Source of the DNA: Clostridiales bacterium
GTDB taxonomy: Bacteria > Bacillota > Clostridia > Lachnospirales > Lachnospiraceae
Length of the DNA stretch: 43,297 bases
Assembly: GCA_012519565.1 (NCBI GenBank)
Contig: JAAYPX010000222.1
Span: forward strand, 1 to 43,297
Direction: 5' to 3'
The notes under the pieces are model-generated. The model made no database searches. It saw only the letters and a list, made by a program, of their open reading frames with translations, and was not told the origin of the DNA. Shown in pieces: positions 14,768-28,147 of the stretch. Within the stretch, counting starts at the first letter, position 1; the number at the start of each line of letters is the position of its first letter. The position numbers were made by a program, and so were the translations under genes.

Positions 14768-17700
14768 TTACTTTATTTTTGTTACTTTAATCTTACAGGT
14801 CAGTGTCTTACCATCTACTTTAGCTGTTATCGTAGCTTCACCAACAGCCTTGGTAGTAACCATACCATTTCTAACCTGGGCTACAGAAGGTTTATTGGAA
14901 GTCCAAATTACTCTTGATGTATTCCCCTCAACCTGTAACATAAATTGCTCATATTGTTCCAGGGTTATACTGTTGATATTAAGTCCAACTACATTTATTT
15001 CTACTGTTGCTGATTTGCCAGATTCCGTCATTGCAGTTATAGTAGCTGTTCCAGTAGATTTTGCTTTTATCTTACCAGTCTTGGTGTTAACCTCTACTAC
15101 AGAAGAATTGCTAGAACTCCATGTAACACCGTCAGTAGAATCTGCCGGCCTTAAGACTGCCTTTAAGGTTCTTTCTTCACCTCTGGACATGACTATTTTT
15201 TTATCTGATAAGGTTAATGCTGTAGATGGTATTTCATCTTTAACAGTTAGGTAAGCAACGGCTTTCTTTCCACTATTATCATTGGCGTAAGCTGTTATAG
15301 TTGCTTTACCAGCTTTTAAAGCTGTTATGGTTCCATCTTCTTCAATCACTGCCACATCCTCATCACTAGATACCCATTTAACATTACGGTATGTTGCATT
15401 AGATGGTTTGATGGTAGGTTTCAATACTCGATTAGTACCTACTATCATTGTAAAGTATGAGGTGTCCAGTTTAATGCTAGTTACAGGTCTTACAACTCTT
15501 ATTACACAACTAGCTTGTATATTGCTTCCATCTTTGGTTGTTGCTGTAATTGTGGCATATCCCAAGGCTACACCAGTTACTTTACCACTTTTATCTACTC
15601 TAGCCACACTTTTATCACTGCTAGTCCATGTAACATTTTTATTACTAGTTGTAGCCGGAAGAATTTCTGCTTCTAAATTAAGACTCTCTTTTAATCCAAG
15701 ATTATAAGTTTCATAGTTTAATTTTATCGAATTAGCCAACTCAATAACCTTAACTACACAAGTTGCCTTAATTCCCCCATCTTCAGTGGTAACTGTAATT
15801 GTTGCAGAACCTCCTCTTTTTCCTTCAACAATTCCATCTTCAGTAACTGCTGCCACTTCAGGATCAGAAGTAGACCATGTTACCTTTAGATTGGATGCAT
15901 CACTAGGTGTTACAGAGGCTCTTAATCTGAATGTTTGATTCACATAAATGGTCTTCTCAGAGAAATTCAGTATAACTCCTGTAACTGGTTGTTTGACTGT
16001 TATTTTACAGATAGCCTCTGCTCCAGCTTCAGTTCTTACAGTAACTGTGGCAATACCAGATGCTTTTGCAGTGACTTTACCCTTATGATCAACTGTTACA
16101 ACATTACTATCACTGGTCTCCCAGAGCAGACGAGTTTTTGTACTGTTTTGTGGTATTATAGTAGTTTCAAATATGTAAGTATCTCCAACCATTAATTCCA
16201 AAGTATTCACATCCAGAGAAACACCAGTAGCTTCCTGACTTACCGTAATAGTACAGTAATCCGTATATCCACCATCATTACTCCTAACTATAATAACTGC
16301 TGTACCTGGGCTTTTAGCCGTTACCTTACCCGATGCATCTACAGATGCCACCCTGTCATTGGTAGAGCTCCACGTTACCAAGGTATTACTGGAAGTCAAA
16401 GGTAGCAAATTATATGTAAGGACAGCTGTTTGATCTACAAACATTGTCTTCTCTTTTTCGGTAATAGAAATTCCTGAAACACCAACTTCTATATTAATCT
16501 CACACATTGCCTTAACATTTAAATCATTATCAGAGGTAGCATATATTGTAACTGTACCTGGTTTTATTAAGGTCACCAAACCATTATCATCTACTCTGGC
16601 TTTAGATGTATCTGATGAGGACCAGTGTACCTTTTTATTATAGGCATTTTCAGGATAAACAATTGCGTTTAGTTGTATTCTACCAACAGACAAGTCTACT
16701 GTCATACTACTTTCCGATAAGGATATGCTTTTAACAGGCTGTTCTACCGTTACATGACAATATCCTACCACTACATTATCAGTGTTGATTGCAGAGATAA
16801 CAGCATTACCTCCTGCCTTACCCTGAATTACTACTGAAGGTCCATTGATACTAACTATTGATACAATATTTTCATCTGATGACTCCCAGGTTATTGCCGA
16901 GGATGTATGATCTTTGGGGCTGACATTGGCAATTAATGTTTTGGTACCATTAATAGGTATAATTACCTGGGACGGCTCTACTACTACCTTCTCTATTGCT
17001 TGTAGAACGGTAATCTCACAGGTCGCCTTTTTAACAATACCATCGATAGTTTGTGTTGCAGTAATTGTTACAATACCTGGTTTTAAAGCCTTTACCAAAC
17101 CATCTTCTACAGTTGCAATACTTTCATTGCTACTAGTCCACTGCACAGGTTTAGTTTCATCTGTTAATCTGGCATATAACTGCAGGCTACCTGTTGTATA
17201 GATTGAGGCTTCTGTTTTACTTAGGGCAATACCGTCAATTACTTTTATATTAATCTCAATCGACTCATTTAATCCTAATTTATTTCGAGTTGAAACATCA
17301 TATAGGTTACTGCTATTTTCATATGTTAAAAAGATCGTTTCCTCTCCATACTTATTGGCAGTAAATATTCCTCTATTCTTATCTATACTGACAATACTAG
17401 AAGTACCAGTTTTTGGACTGTACTTAAACACCTTAGCATCTGGAATATTGGAATTGTCCAGAATATTATAGATGTCACCTACTGTCATATTAAGATTTCG
17501 ATTATTAATTATAACAGGAACTACTATTTTCAAGTAGGCATAAGGTACATCGGAACTCTTATTATATGTATTATCTGCATAAGCAAATATCTCATATGTT
17601 CCTGCTTTCACATTAGTAAACATTATACTACCACTTAATTCACTTATGTTATAACTCATCTTTGATGTGTCATTAGGAGAAATTAGTTTTCCCGTACTAA

Positions 17701-18616
17701 GATCATATATCTCCCACTTTAAATTATTAGCCCGTCTTGCGTTAGAGTTAATTGTAAATTCAGATGGGACTATAGCAGGCTCACCTAGTTTATCTACCTT
17801 ATCTACAGAATAAACATTATGGGGCATAGCATCAGTGTCATAATATGATAGGCTAAAAGCTGGTCTTACAACTACCTTTATTTTAACTTCTTGGGGGCTA
17901 CCATTTTTAGAAAAAGTTTTGGTTGTTGCTTTTATATATGTAGTTCCTGCTCCCTTAGCTACTACCTTACCATTGGAATCAACAGTAGCAATATTGTTAT
18001 TCTCACTTGTCCACAAAACTAATGGAGAAGTATCGCCACCATCCACATATCTTAGATATAGTTGCTGCTCACCTGCTGGCTCTAGATCCTGATCAAGTTT
18101 ATATAGTACAAGTGTAGTTTCTTGATCATCTTCTAACAATTCATTATCTACTCCCAGGTTTTGCCTGATCTTACCATAGTCCCATTCTAGTCCAACTTTA
18201 ACATGTAAAATCATTGTATAAGAATAGGCACCAAGCTTTAAATTAGCCGTAATTGTAGCAAAACCAGGCCCTTTACGAATCATTTTCTGATTATAGATCT
18301 GATGAGGAACAGGTTCTAATACAATTACATTCTCATCAGAAGAATACCAAGTTACTTCTGTTGCATCGCTTTTCCATTCATCAGGTACTAGTATTTGTAT
18401 TACCTCTTGTATGTCTAGCATCTCATATTCTTCACCAGATTTTACTTTAGCGTTTTTTATATTAAAAATATACTCATCTGGTCTTAAAATTCCATCACCC
18501 TCATCAACCTCTGCTGCTCTGGCGTGAATTGTGTTGATACCCAGCAGCATAGATAAAAAGAGCAAGGATATAATCAAGGACATCCCTAGTGTTTTCCTTC
18601 TTTTTGAAACAATCAT
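14768..18616 (-). CDS. Secreted protein with BIG2 Ig-like repeats
   Basis: A 1282-residue exported protein of unknown role. A basic start and hydrophobic segment (about 5-30) end in HARA, a good signal peptidase I site near residue 34. About residues 461-1282 form ten back-to-back BIG2-type units of 80-85 residues, recognised by recurring WSSSD..VA.VD..G.V.A...G.ATITA. Two more diverged units lie at about 60-140 and 165-250, with a less clear region (255-460) between. There is no LPxTG motif, S-layer domain, cell-wall binding repeat or enzymatic domain; the protein ends in KVTKIK. BIG2 domains occur in surface and adhesin-like proteins, so a cell-surface structural or adhesive role is likely but unproven. 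The start follows AGGAGGT. It has its own terminator. Confidence 0.9.
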   Translation of the reverse strand: MIVSKRRKTLGMSLIISLLFLSMLLGINTIHARAAEVDEGDGILRPDEYIFNIKNAKVKSGEEYEMLDIQEVIQILVPDEWKSDATEVTWYSSDENVIVLEPVPHQIYNQKMIRKGPGFATITANLKLGAYSYTMILHVKVGLEWDYGKIRQNLGVDNELLEDDQETTLVLYKLDQDLEPAGEQQLYLRYVDGGDTSPLVLWTSENNNIATVDSNGKVVAKGAGTTYIKATTKTFSKNGSPQEVKIKVVVRPAFSLSYYDTDAMPHNVYSVDKVDKLGEPAIVPSEFTINSNARRANNLKWEIYDLSTGKLISPNDTSKMSYNISELSGSIMFTNVKAGTYEIFAYADNTYNKSSDVPYAYLKIVVPVIINNRNLNMTVGDIYNILDNSNIPDAKVFKYSPKTGTSSIVSIDKNRGIFTANKYGEETIFLTYENSSNLYDVSTRNKLGLNESIEINIKVIDGIALSKTEASIYTTGSLQLYARLTDETKPVQWTSSNESIATVEDGLVKALKPGIVTITATQTIDGIVKKATCEITVLQAIEKVVVEPSQVIIPINGTKTLIANVSPKDHTSSAITWESSDENIVSIVSINGPSVVIQGKAGGNAVISAINTDNVVVGYCHVTVEQPVKSISLSESSMTVDLSVGRIQLNAIVYPENAYNKKVHWSSSDTSKARVDDNGLVTLIKPGTVTIYATSDNDLNVKAMCEINIEVGVSGISITEKEKTMFVDQTAVLTYNLLPLTSSNTLVTWSSTNDRVASVDASGKVTAKSPGTAVIIVRSNDGGYTDYCTITVSQEATGVSLDVNTLELMVGDTYIFETTIIPQNSTKTRLLWETSDSNVVTVDHKGKVTAKASGIATVTVRTEAGAEAICKITVKQPVTGVILNFSEKTIYVNQTFRLRASVTPSDASNLKVTWSTSDPEVAAVTEDGIVEGKRGGSATITVTTEDGGIKATCVVKVIELANSIKLNYETYNLGLKESLNLEAEILPATTSNKNVTWTSSDKSVARVDKSGKVTGVALGYATITATTKDGSNIQASCVIRVVRPVTSIKLDTSYFTMIVGTNRVLKPTIKPSNATYRNVKWVSSDEDVAVIEEDGTITALKAGKATITAYANDNSGKKAVAYLTVKDEIPSTALTLSDKKIVMSRGEERTLKAVLRPADSTDGVTWSSSNSSVVEVNTKTGKIKAKSTGTATITAMTESGKSATVEINVVGLNINSITLEQYEQFMLQVEGNTSRVIWTSNKPSVAQVRNGMVTTKAVGEATITAKVDGKTLTCKIKVTKIK

Positions 18617-22928: not shown

Positions 22929-23768
22929 TTATAAACTTAAATGTGCCTTATTAACAATATTTTGTATCAAATTATTATCCAGATCAACACCAAGTATTAC
23001 ATTCTTATCCTCTACTGATAAATCTTGATTAAGGGATTTATCCTTTTTCATATATAGCAAATATTCAATGTTTCCTTCTGGTCCCTTAATCGGTGAGTAG
23101 TCTAAATAAATACAATTAAAACCAATAGATGCTGCATATAAGCTAACCTTATCAATTACCTCCACATGCACTTCTTTATCTCTGACAACCCCCTTCTTAC
23201 CAACCTTATCTCTACCAGCTTCAAATTGGGGTTTTATTAGGCAAACAACTTCTGCCTTTGGTGCTAAAAGCTCCCATACAGGCATTAACACCTTTGTCAA
23301 AGAAATAAAGGATACGTCAATGGATGCAAAGGCTATCTGATCTTCTATCTGGTCAGGAGTAAGATAGCGGATGTTAGTCTTCTCCATTGTAACCACCCGT
23401 TCATCCTGCCTTAACTTCCAAGCCAATTGATTTGTTCCCACATCCACTGCTTAAACCTTGGCTGCTCCGTTTTGAAGCATGCAATCAGTAAATCCACCGG
23501 TAGATGAGCCAATATCCATGCAGATCTTACCCTCTAGGGAAATACCATATTGCTCTATGGCCTTCTCAAGCTTTAAGCCACCCCGACTCACATATTTCAA
23601 AGGACTTCCTTTTACCTCTATGGTCACATCCTCTGGAAATGTACTGCCTGCCTTATCTTCCCTTTGTCCATCTACAAAAACATTACCGGACATAATTATT
23701 GCCTTAGCCTTCTCCCTGCTTTCAGCTAAATTTCTATTAACTAATAATACATCTAAACGTTGCTTCAT
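22929..23768 (-). pseudogene. tlyA: TlyA-type rRNA methyltransferase with premature stop
   Basis: TlyA proteins are 2'-O-methyltransferases acting on ribosomal RNA. The reading frame is complete (about 279 codons, normal length) except for an in-frame TAA at 23451-23453, codon 106. Before the stop: an S4 RNA-binding domain (about residues 1-60), SRGGLKLEKA and the SAM-binding DIGSSTGGFTD (85-95). After it, in the same frame: AVDVGTNQLAWKLR, IDVSFISL, IKPQFE and GPEGNIEYL. Family members have KVYAVDVG here, so one base change of a Tyr codon explains the stop. A GTG at 23445-23447 with AAGG eight bases upstream might restart translation, but that fragment lacks the S4 and SAM motifs. Either a real nonsense mutation or a sequence error. 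Confidence 0.9.
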
Positions 23769-23813: not shown

Positions 23814-25682
23814 TTACAAAGCAGATAGAATTCTCTTTGCTATACTAGCTCCATCCATTCCTAATCTTTCTTTCAGCTCGTCAACTCCGCCCTGCTCAAC
23901 GAATACATTAGGTACAGAAATATTAATTTGACGAACTCCTTCAATAAATTCATCACATAAAAATGCTGATACTTTCTCACCGTATCCCCCGCTTTTTACG
24001 TTTTCCTCCATAGTTACCAGTAGTCTATGATTTTGGGATAGTTCCCTTATAATCTCCCTGTCAAATGGCGCCACGAATCTTACATTTACCATCGTTGCAT
24101 TAATGCCTGACTCCTTAAGGATATCTACTACTTCAGCAGCAGTCTTTACCATACTTCCAACTGCCAGTATAGCCACCTGCTCTCCCTTATAAATAAGCTC
24201 ACTTTTACCGTGTACTATGGGAGATTGGTAACCCTCAAGCCCTTCATATGCCATACCTTTAGGATAACGAATGGCTACAGGACCAGGATAACTTAATGCA
24301 TACCCCAGCATTATGTCTAGTTCATAACTATTCTTAGGAGCCATCACAGTCATATTTGGAAAATGGGTTAAAAAAGATAGGTCAAATAACCCTTGATGGG
24401 TCTCCCCATCCCTTCCTGTAATTCCAGCCCTATCAATGGCAAATACCACTGGAAGATTGTTAATGCATACATCATGTAATATCTGATCATAGGCTCTTTG
24501 TAGAAATGTTGAATAGATTGCTACCACTGGTTTATATCCACTTGCAGCAAGTCCCCCTGCAAAAGTTACCGCATGTTCTTCCGCAATACCCACATCAAAG
24601 AAGCGCTTAGGATAATGCCTTTTAAAATCTATGAGTCCTACACCTTTAGGCATAGCTGCTGTTATTGCAACTATTTTGTCATCTACTGCCCCGTATCGCA
24701 CCAAGGCATCTGAAAACACCTTAGTATATGAGGTGCCCTCATCTTTTTTTGTAGGTTTACCATTATTAATATTAAAGGGATCAACTCCATGAAATCTACT
24801 GGGATACTTCTCTGCTAAGGGGTAACCTTTACCTTTCTTGGTAACGGCATGGATAACAACTGCTTTATTTACTTTAGACGCTGCTTTTAGAGCAGTTATT
24901 ATCTGACCTATATTATGCCCATCTATTGGACCAATGTAAGTAAGCCCCATATCCTCAAAGAACATACTGGGTATCATAAAATACTTAATAGCATCCTTAG
25001 AGCGTTTAAGCACATCTACTATAGGTTCACCAACCCCTGGCATTAAGCGGGTTAGACGGTTTTCTACATTTTCCTTAAAACCAGTGTATTTGGAATTGGT
25101 TCTTAATTTAGCCAGATAATTAGCCATACCTCCTACGTTCTCGGAGATAGACATATTATTATCATTTAAAATAATAATAAGATTAGATTTCATTCTTCCA
25201 GCATTATTTAAGGCCTCATAGGCCAGACCGCCGGTCAAAGCCCCATCTCCCAATACTGCCACAATTTTATTATTATTACCGCCAATATCTCTAGCCTTAG
25301 CCATTCCCAAGGCAGCAGAAATTGCCGTAGAACTATGGCCAGTATCAAAACTGTCGCATTCAGACTCTTTCCTCTTGGGGAAACCACTGATTCCATCTAA
25401 TTGCCTTAAAGTAGCAAAGACATCCTTTCTTCCCGTTAGAATTTTATGGGTATAGGACTGGTGTCCAACATCCCATATCAACTTATCCTTAGGTAAGTCT
25501 AAGAACAGATGCAGAGCCATAGTTAGCTCTACTACACCTAGATTAGCGGCCAGGTGTCCTCCTGTCTTACTAACATTTTCAATTAAAAAAAATCGGATTT
25601 CCTTAGCTAATAAATCATAATCTTTTTTATTAATCTTTTTTATATCATTAGCTAAATTAATATTATCTAATATCCTATACAT
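23814..25682 (-). CDS. dxs: 1-deoxy-D-xylulose-5-phosphate synthase
   Basis: Thiamine-diphosphate enzyme joining pyruvate and glyceraldehyde 3-phosphate, first step of the MEP isoprenoid pathway. The 622 residues are intact: DVGHQSYTHKILTGR, the ThDP motif GDGALTGG..LNDNNMSIS, catalytic Glu in IAEEHAVTFAGG, and DRAGITGRDGETHQG. The ATG at 25680-25682 (MYRILDN) follows GGAG; an upstream ATG nine codons earlier is less well placed. It lies between ispA and tlyA in the classic Firmicute order, so loss of the two flanking genes but not dxs is notable. Confidence 0.97.
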   Translation of the reverse strand: MYRILDNINLANDIKKINKKDYDLLAKEIRFFLIENVSKTGGHLAANLGVVELTMALHLFLDLPKDKLIWDVGHQSYTHKILTGRKDVFATLRQLDGISGFPKRKESECDSFDTGHSSTAISAALGMAKARDIGGNNNKIVAVLGDGALTGGLAYEALNNAGRMKSNLIIILNDNNMSISENVGGMANYLAKLRTNSKYTGFKENVENRLTRLMPGVGEPIVDVLKRSKDAIKYFMIPSMFFEDMGLTYIGPIDGHNIGQIITALKAASKVNKAVVIHAVTKKGKGYPLAEKYPSRFHGVDPFNINNGKPTKKDEGTSYTKVFSDALVRYGAVDDKIVAITAAMPKGVGLIDFKRHYPKRFFDVGIAEEHAVTFAGGLAASGYKPVVAIYSTFLQRAYDQILHDVCINNLPVVFAIDRAGITGRDGETHQGLFDLSFLTHFPNMTVMAPKNSYELDIMLGYALSYPGPVAIRYPKGMAYEGLEGYQSPIVHGKSELIYKGEQVAILAVGSMVKTAAEVVDILKESGINATMVNVRFVAPFDREIIRELSQNHRLLVTMEENVKSGGYGEKVSAFLCDEFIEGVRQINISVPNVFVEQGGVDELKERLGMDGASIAKRILSAL

Positions 25683-25748
25683 ATAAACTCCATTTCCAGA
25701 TAAATACATCTTTACTTAGTAAAGTTAACTTATCTTGCGAAACACCAA

Positions 25749-26666
25749 TTAACTTTCTCTATTAATTAGCTTGTATATTAATAATTTTAAATATTCATTA
25801 TTATGATTTAAGGTTTCAAAAGCTTTTATGGCTCTCTGGGAAATAAACTCCACCTCATCCATAGCTTTATCGATACCTAAAACTGATACATAGGTGGCTT
25901 TGTCATTTTTCTCATCACTATGAACAGGTTTCCCAAGTGCCTCTTCTGTTCCAATAACATCTAAGATATCATCTCTAATTTGAAAGGCCAAACCTATATC
26001 TCCAGCAATCTGTTCAACAGTCTTAATTTCACCCTCTGTAGCTCCTGCTAAAATAGCACCAATCATCATAGAAGCTTCTACTAAAGCACTGGTTTTTAAT
26101 TTGTAAATAAAATCCAGTCTCTCCTTGTCCATTATACCATTAAATTCCATAACATCAACTGTTTGGCCACCAATCATTCCATATATTCCAGCCTTGTTTG
26201 CTAAGATTTCTAATGACTTGCTTACCTTCCTATACTTATGTAGCTCTTCCAAATCATTATTGCCATCAATTAAACTAAAGGCCTTTGAAGCTGTCTCAAA
26301 TGCATAATTAAGTAAGCCATCACCTGCTAATATAGCAATAGCTTCTCCAAATACCACATGGGTTGTCTTTCTCCCTCTTCTATAGTCATCATTATCCATT
26401 GCTGGCAGATCATCATGAACCAGGGAGTATGTGTGAATCATTTCTATGGCCGCCATGAAAGGTTCTAGCAATTTTTGATCCTTACCATCGAAAAGCCTAA
26501 AGGTTTCACCCATTAACATAGGTCTTAACCTTTTTCAACCGGCTAAAACACTATAGTTCATAGCTTTCATTACAATACTCTGATAACCTTCTTCCTTGGG
26601 AAGAAATTTATCCAGTATTCCTTCTATTTCATCTAACCTTCTCTGGCGCTCCTGCTCAAAGTTCAT
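25749..26666 (-). pseudogene. ispA: Polyprenyl (farnesyl) diphosphate synthase with premature stop
   Basis: IspA condenses IPP with DMAPP or GPP to make farnesyl/geranylgeranyl diphosphate. From the ATG at 26664-26666 the frame reads MNFEQERQRRL..., reaching YSVLAG at residue 43, then TGA (26535-26537), then KRLRPMLMGETF in the same frame to the end. The conserved motif is GGKRxRP, so a GGA glycine codon has become TGA by one substitution. Both Asp-rich motifs, DDLPAMDND and QIRDDILD, are intact. A restart at the ATG 26517-26519 (AAGG nine bases upstream) would give 256 residues without the IPP-binding Lys/Arg. The first 11 bases overlap xseB. TGA serves as a normal stop elsewhere here (MATE gene, spoIIIAD), so general recoding is unlikely. 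Confidence 0.92.
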
Positions 26667-26865
26667 TTATATCTCCCTTTTCATTTAAAATTATAAGTTC
26701 TTTCTCAACCTTATCAATGGAAGTATTACATACTTTAATTAATTTCATTCCCTCCTGATACAAGTTAAAAGAATTTTCCAGACTAATATCCGGTTTCTCC
26801 AGTTCTTCCATTATATGATTCAAACGTTCAAATGCATCTTCTAATTTTATATCTTTCTCATTCAT
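26656..26865 (-). CDS. xseB: Exodeoxyribonuclease VII small subunit
   Basis: Small helical subunit that binds several-fold to XseA in exonuclease VII. The 69-residue product carries LEDAFERLNHIMEELEKPDISLENS and LYQEGMKLIKVCN, the family's two-helix pattern (quoted in part). The start is uncertain: the ATG at 26863-26865 has GGAAAGG 12 bases upstream, while an ATG seven codons earlier has no site. The 3' end overlaps the ispA start by 11 bases, indicating translational coupling. Confidence 0.92.
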   Translation of the reverse strand: MNEKDIKLEDAFERLNHIMEELEKPDISLENSFNLYQEGMKLIKVCNTSIDKVEKELIILNEKGDINEL

Positions 26866-26932
26866 AGCGATACCATGCCTTTCCATACACTTAAATTCAC
26901 TTCAATGAAACTATCATAAGCCATCAAATTTT

Positions 26933-28147
26933 TTATTTATATCCACGTTCTATTTCTGAAATTTCTTCTACCCTTGCTTTAACCTCTCCATCCAATAAGG
27001 ACAGGGTTATTACTTCATCTACGGAAATATTTTTTGCACTTTGTACAGGCTTACCATCTTCCCCTATTACCATAGCATAGCCTCTGCTTAATTTTTTCAA
27101 TGGGGATAAACCCTCTAACTTAGTAATTATAAGCTGTAGTTGATGCTTTTTAAGTTTCAAGCTTCTTTCCATTAAGTAATGAAGCTTTTGCTCTGTATCA
27201 ATAAGTCTCTGTCTTTTTTGTTGTATCTGATAACTTGGACTACTGTAGTCTAAGCGAAGTTTGTATTCCCTAACCAGACCTCTACTGTAAGTGATCTTTT
27301 GTATCATTATTTTATTTAGTTGCCTTTGATAGTCAGAAATTGTTGTTAAGAAGGTACGGTAATCATTAACCGCCAGCTCTGCCGCTGCTGAGGGGGTTGG
27401 GGCACGAAGATCTGCAACAAAATCAGCTATGGTTACATCGGTTTCGTGACCCACAGCTGATATAATAGGTGTGTTGCAATTAAAAATTGTCCGAGCTACT
27501 AACTCTTCATTAAATGCCCACAGATCTTCTATTGAACCACCACCTCTTCCCACAATTATGGTGTCCAGATTAAGCTTGTCCAAGGCCATAATACCTTTGG
27601 CTATACTCTGGGCTGCCCCTATCCCTTGAACCTGGGCGGGGTATAATATTAACTGGACATAAGGATTTCTACGCTTGGCAATGTTAAGTATGTCCTGGAT
27701 GGCAGCTCCTGTGCTGGCCGTCACTATTCCTATCTTTGTAGGATACTGAGGAATTGGCTTCTTATGGGACTTATCAAACAGCCCTTCCATCTCCAATGCT
27801 TTTTTAAGTCTTTCATATTGCTCATATAAACGACCTAAACCGTCCAATTGGATACTACTTGCATACAACTGATACTTGCCGTCCCTCTCATATACATTAA
27901 TACTGCCTAGTACAATTACACTTTGTCCCTCTTCCAGGCGAAATGTTAGCCCCCTCCGCTGTCCTGCGAACATAACACAAGCTAACTGACCAGCTGCATC
28001 CTTAAGAGTAAAATAAATATGTCCTGAGGTATGATATTTACAGTTTGATACTTCTCCTTTGATGTATACACGATTGAGAATTTGGTCCCTAATGAAGATA
28101 TTTTTTATATATTGATTTATCTGTGTGACTGTATATGCTTGATTCAT
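26933..28147 (-). CDS. xseA: Exodeoxyribonuclease VII large subunit
   Basis: Catalytic subunit of exonuclease VII, which degrades single-stranded DNA. The 404 residues show an N-terminal OB fold (about 1-100: VYIKGEVSNCKYHTSGHIYFTLKD, quoted only partly as the family start) and the catalytic core with GIVTASTGAAIQDI, VGRGGGSIEDLWAFNEE and SAVGHETDVTIADFVADLRAPTPS (in two parts), followed by coiled-coil helices. AGGAGG precedes the ATG. It is 15 bases after nusB and 67 before xseB in the standard operon. Confidence 0.97.
   Translation of the reverse strand: MNQAYTVTQINQYIKNIFIRDQILNRVYIKGEVSNCKYHTSGHIYFTLKDAAGQLACVMFAGQRRGLTFRLEEGQSVIVLGSINVYERDGKYQLYASSIQLDGLGRLYEQYERLKKALEMEGLFDKSHKKPIPQYPTKIGIVTASTGAAIQDILNIAKRRNPYVQLILYPAQVQGIGAAQSIAKGIMALDKLNLDTIIVGRGGGSIEDLWAFNEELVARTIFNCNTPIISAVGHETDVTIADFVADLRAPTPSAAAELAVNDYRTFLTTISDYQRQLNKIMIQKITYSRGLVREYKLRLDYSSPSYQIQQKRQRLIDTEQKLHYLMERSLKLKKHQLQLIITKLEGLSPLKKLSRGYAMVIGEDGKPVQSAKNISVDEVITLSLLDGEVKARVEEISEIERGYK

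Follow-up and report, generated by a model that had tools for sequence, protein, structure and literature searches.

The window, by which we mean the whole 43,297-nucleotide stretch of Clostridiales DNA that was analyzed, carries on its minus strand a cluster of genes that runs from xseA (26933..28147; TIGR00237, 497.5 bits) through an ORF that, from its position and sequence, we take to be xseB (26656..26886) to ispA, encoding farnesyl diphosphate synthase (25749..26666), dxs (23814..25709; TIGR00204, 786.5 bits), and tlyA, of the rRNA methyltransferase family TIGR00478 (22929..23768). The xseA, xseB, and dxs frames contain no internal stop, and ispA and tlyA are each interrupted once. In ispA, the interruption is an in-frame TGA at 26535..26537, where the minus strand reads GCC GGT TGA AAA AGG TTA AGA CCT; apart from this codon the frame is open from the ATG at 26666 to a TAA that ends at 25749. 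The first and second Asp-rich motifs are the marks of trans-prenyl diphosphate synthases, and the translation retains both (HDDLPAMDND and DDILD), whereas the GGKRxRP motif (GGKRLRP) is broken at its second Gly. A HMMER search of the organism's own draft genome (G000) with PF00348 scored ispA at 178.5 bits across the stop, against a cut-off of 27, and reported "1 TGA" inside the match. The sequence-only reading of this DNA had proposed a premature stop within this motif of ispA, and the gene, its coordinates, the motif, and the intact remainder of the frame were all borne out.

Conservation at the interrupted codon is nearly complete. In an alignment of 102 rows, one of which is the window's own locus and in which some genomes are entered twice (by genome handle and by named contig), the codon aligned with the TGA encodes Gly in 100 of the 101 other rows (GGA in 46, GGC in 32, GGT in 13, and GGG in 9) and Ser in the remaining one (AGC, L057), which agrees with the earlier statement that prenyl synthases have a second Gly at this place. 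The same reading had named family members that lack a residue here as something that would count against it; none of the 101 rows does. PF00348 matches were found in 59 of the 61 genomes searched, G000 included, and among the matches listed that of G000 alone contains a stop. Measured against 64 near-invariant columns (92 rows, near-duplicates removed), ispA departs from its family only at the stop itself, and we therefore rejected the idea that the gene is a decaying pseudogene.

The ispA stop has a neighbor that the sequence-only reading overlooked. Within the same gene cluster and 3.1 kb distant, tlyA has an in-frame TAA at 23451..23453, where 76 of 102 other rows have Tyr and 26 have Phe. 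The tlyA frame scores 284.8 bits across this stop ("1 TAA" inside; cut-off 185.8), and in a TIGR00478 search that matched 40 of 41 genomes an inside stop was listed for no match except that in the window. Like ispA, tlyA is otherwise undecayed, with departures at 0 of 95 near-invariant columns (58 rows); in dxs, which is unbroken, the figure is 3 of 199 (73 rows). An N-terminal truncation of pheT suggested by the list of ORFs was rejected, because the frame stays open almost to the end of the contig, with at most two bases to spare. The minus strand of the window also encodes, at 14768-18616 between the MATE ORF and an ORF taken as recN, a secreted-looking protein of 1282 residues with repeated Ig-like units, presumably of the Big_2 type.

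How the two stops are to be read depends on the draft in which they occur. G000 is a draft of 2.77 Mb spread over 269 contigs, with a completeness of 90.15%, and, judging only by its fragmentation, it is metagenome-assembled. We sampled 80 stretches of its other contigs, which together with the window make 81 stretches and 721,449 bases, or 26% of the 2.77 Mb, and scanned them ab initio for places where a lone stop separates two coding-like stretches in the same frame. The scan returned 44 candidates, most of which were judged by inspection to be ordinary gene boundaries, and homology confirmed only tlyA, ispA, fliY, and rplP among them, a count of four that is not complete. Thus, four in-frame stops in conserved genes were found in the 721,449 bases: the TGA in ispA and a TAA in each of tlyA, rplP, and fliY. 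In all four families the G000 match is reported with "1 TGA" or "1 TAA" and the other relatives' matches listed with "none." The rplP stop, in the gene for ribosomal protein L16, falls between RMG and GKGS (C17:12395-12397, in L158, minus strand; profile search and alignment), a point that two same-order relatives with the gene intact, at 80 and 82% identity, read straight through. G000 yielded a single rplP match, of 198.6 bits across "1 TAA," and a search of 41 genomes found rplP in 35, with no other inside stop among the matches listed. The fliY stop lies in the second CheC-like stretch (C77:10233-10235 of 10584, in L195, plus strand), which is open in two aligned relatives. The rplP and fliY stops are each no more than about 350 bases from a contig end, a location in which errors may be commoner, whereas the contig that holds the ispA stop is 43 kb long and has the stop in its interior. 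At the stops, the changed base might repeat a neighboring base, an observation from very few cases. Breaks are sparse in the draft, as three other examined matches from the same genome (prfB, uppS, and rpoC) contain no inside stop; rpoC is whole, and rpoB matches fall on two contigs (C169 and C172). Both rplP and fliY were looked up after the scan had flagged them and are not a random sample.

A single-contig relative of the same genus (G007) served as a control. The control set comprised 695 ORFs from 800 kb, of which 191 match G000 stretches, 162 of them at 35% identity or more. Five of these 162 matches hold a stop. We placed only the stops of ispA and tlyA inside genes; the remaining three matches (L142, L189, and L192) were set aside by eye, as their stops come within a few residues of one or the other end of the alignment. 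The same comparison revealed one frameshift, of a single base, in what we take from its sequence to be a cheR-like gene (at about L231:14379 on C230, plus strand). With the comparison reversed, stops were present in 6 of 159 matches; on inspection they were terminal or fell in gapped ends or antisense shadow ORFs. No frameshift appeared among the 159 matches, and we placed none of their stops within a sense gene. Applied to 800 kb of G007, the ab initio scan yielded 45 candidates versus 44 in G000, and by eye none of the 45 breaks a known housekeeping gene. The raw candidate count therefore fails to separate the two genomes, whereas homology-confirmed breaks do separate them; the difference between the two scans rests on reading the candidates by eye rather than on homology tests.

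The near-invariance of Gly at the interrupted ispA codon raises the question of whether the TGA could be read through, by selenocysteine insertion, reassignment of TGA, or a suppressor tRNA, and TGA does encode Gly in some candidate-phylum bacteria. In addition, RNA beginning just before the TGA (26474-26540, minus strand) folds slightly better than shuffled sequence (z = -1.87, with 8 of 200 shuffles at least as good), a difference that is probably due to chance. Against readthrough, TGA terminates 40 of 361 long stop-to-stop ORFs in the 721-kb sample, and it does serve as the normal terminator of both spoIIIAD and the MATE gene, as the sequence-only reading had observed. The release factor 2 gene prfB scores 529.2 bits (cut-off 370) without an inside stop, and a search for SelB in the 90%-complete draft gave 10 matches, none reaching the cut-off. 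A scan for tRNA genes that covered the window and 59 of the other 80 sampled stretches, which is thin evidence, found six, none in the window and no suppressor among them. The remaining in-frame stops are TAA, and we found nothing specific to TGA in the release factor, SelB, tRNAs, stop-codon use, or the fold, on which grounds recoding was rejected, as the sequence-only reading had also thought it unlikely; we regard it as very improbable. A broader version, in which all four stops are real and the only assembled trans-prenyl synthase gene and those for L16, FliY, and TlyA are usefully read through, would call for general leakiness at stop codons despite a normal-looking release factor 2, and strikes us as slightly less credible still.

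Translation might instead restart downstream of the stop and yield a shorter functional enzyme. An open frame of 256 residues follows (25749..26519, minus strand), with a possible start at the ATG at 26519 (Met50) preceded by AAAAGG, and the 256-residue piece scores 265.3 bits against the farnesyl diphosphate synthase family NF045485 (FPPsyn). This score is nevertheless under the curated cut-off of 275, and AAAAGG is merely the sequence that encodes Lys-Arg. The piece also lacks KRLRP, which binds IPP; it had been argued beforehand that a restart product would be without its IPP-binding residues, and initiation at Met50 would indeed lose the KRxR residues. We give a functional restart the least credence of the explanations considered here.

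A more serious alternative is that the TGA is genuine, either a nonsense allele that arose very recently in ispA or a strain variant within the population, and that it is tolerated because the missing tenth of the genome holds a synthase, because a different enzyme makes short prenyl diphosphates, or because there is low-level readthrough. The undecayed state of the rest of ispA is what would be expected of a very recent event, and 14 of 33 genomes of the same genus have at least two PF00348 matches. The other 19, including the single-contig G007, have just one, and so does G000, in which a search of the 90%-complete draft for a second match returned only the interrupted ispA. The suggestion that, if the stop were real, another synthase would make the C15 product thus finds no support in the draft. 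UppS requires an allylic primer, and the uppS gene of this genome is free of inside stops. Because no second PF00348 protein was found while UppS is unbroken, real loss of ispA would be costly. It is not impossible, since PMC12345219 describes Staphylococcus aureus ispA mutants, and also an ispA hepT double mutant, as viable; ispA is accordingly less clearly essential than the sequence-only reading had implied, and the argument for an error therefore rests mainly on rplP. A real allele would leave the stop in the only rplP found unexplained and would also require an independent event to have struck tlyA, at a distance of 3.1 kb. We consider it unlikely, yet clearly the strongest of the alternatives.

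We think it highly probable that the ispA TGA is a consensus base error of the 269-contig draft. L16 is located at the peptidyltransferase center of the ribosome. The draft most probably holds base errors because its one rplP has a stop and L16 is reported to be essential in Bacillus subtilis (PMC4199504). We infer that the other breaks are likewise errors and that the ispA stop would have the same cause, in which case a wrong consensus base would have given rise to the TGA, and ispA in the organism would be an ordinary intact farnesyl diphosphate synthase gene within an xseA-xseB-ispA-dxs-tlyA cluster. The stops are of two kinds and lie in unrelated genes, including one that ribosomes require, a pattern that fits base errors rather than recoding or an adaptive loss of ispA. 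The sequence-only reading had offered a very recent event or a base-call error, and both options were sound; of the two, the evidence favors a base-call or assembly error because tlyA, fliY, and rplP carry TAA and the cheR-like gene carries a frameshift. By themselves, the breaks in tlyA, fliY, and the cheR-like gene could mean that these three are true pseudogenes.

The implied error rate can be estimated from the four nonsense events in 196,689 coding codons. Given that 4.9% of random substitutions produce a stop, these events correspond to about 82 coding substitutions, or about 1.4e-4 per base, a rate that would be plausible for a thinly covered draft. By simple arithmetic, if four events were scattered at random over 721 kb, at least two of them would fall no more than 3.1 kb apart in roughly one case in twenty, so the ispA and tlyA stops form at most a mild cluster and perhaps mark a poorly covered spot.

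As a biological feature, then, the ispA stop is most probably not real but an artefact. A real stop would be relevant to the question of whether a bacterium can do without its one trans-prenyl synthase. A striking lesion in a single gene of a draft should be weighed against the rate of lesions in the same draft before it is given a metabolic explanation.

With respect to known systems, the gene belongs with IspA (PF00348; NCBIfam NF045485): its whole frame scores over the PF00348 cut-off, its Asp-rich motifs are kept, and dxs and tlyA lie close by as they do in the loci of relatives. It differs from the family in that a single in-frame TGA takes the place of the second Gly of GGKRxRP. Draft consensus sequences are known to contain errors of the nonsense and frameshift kinds, and whereas the error here is deduced from sequence rather than seen in reads, the likeness to such defects lies in isolated small breaks, with different stop codons, in unrelated conserved genes that include rplP.
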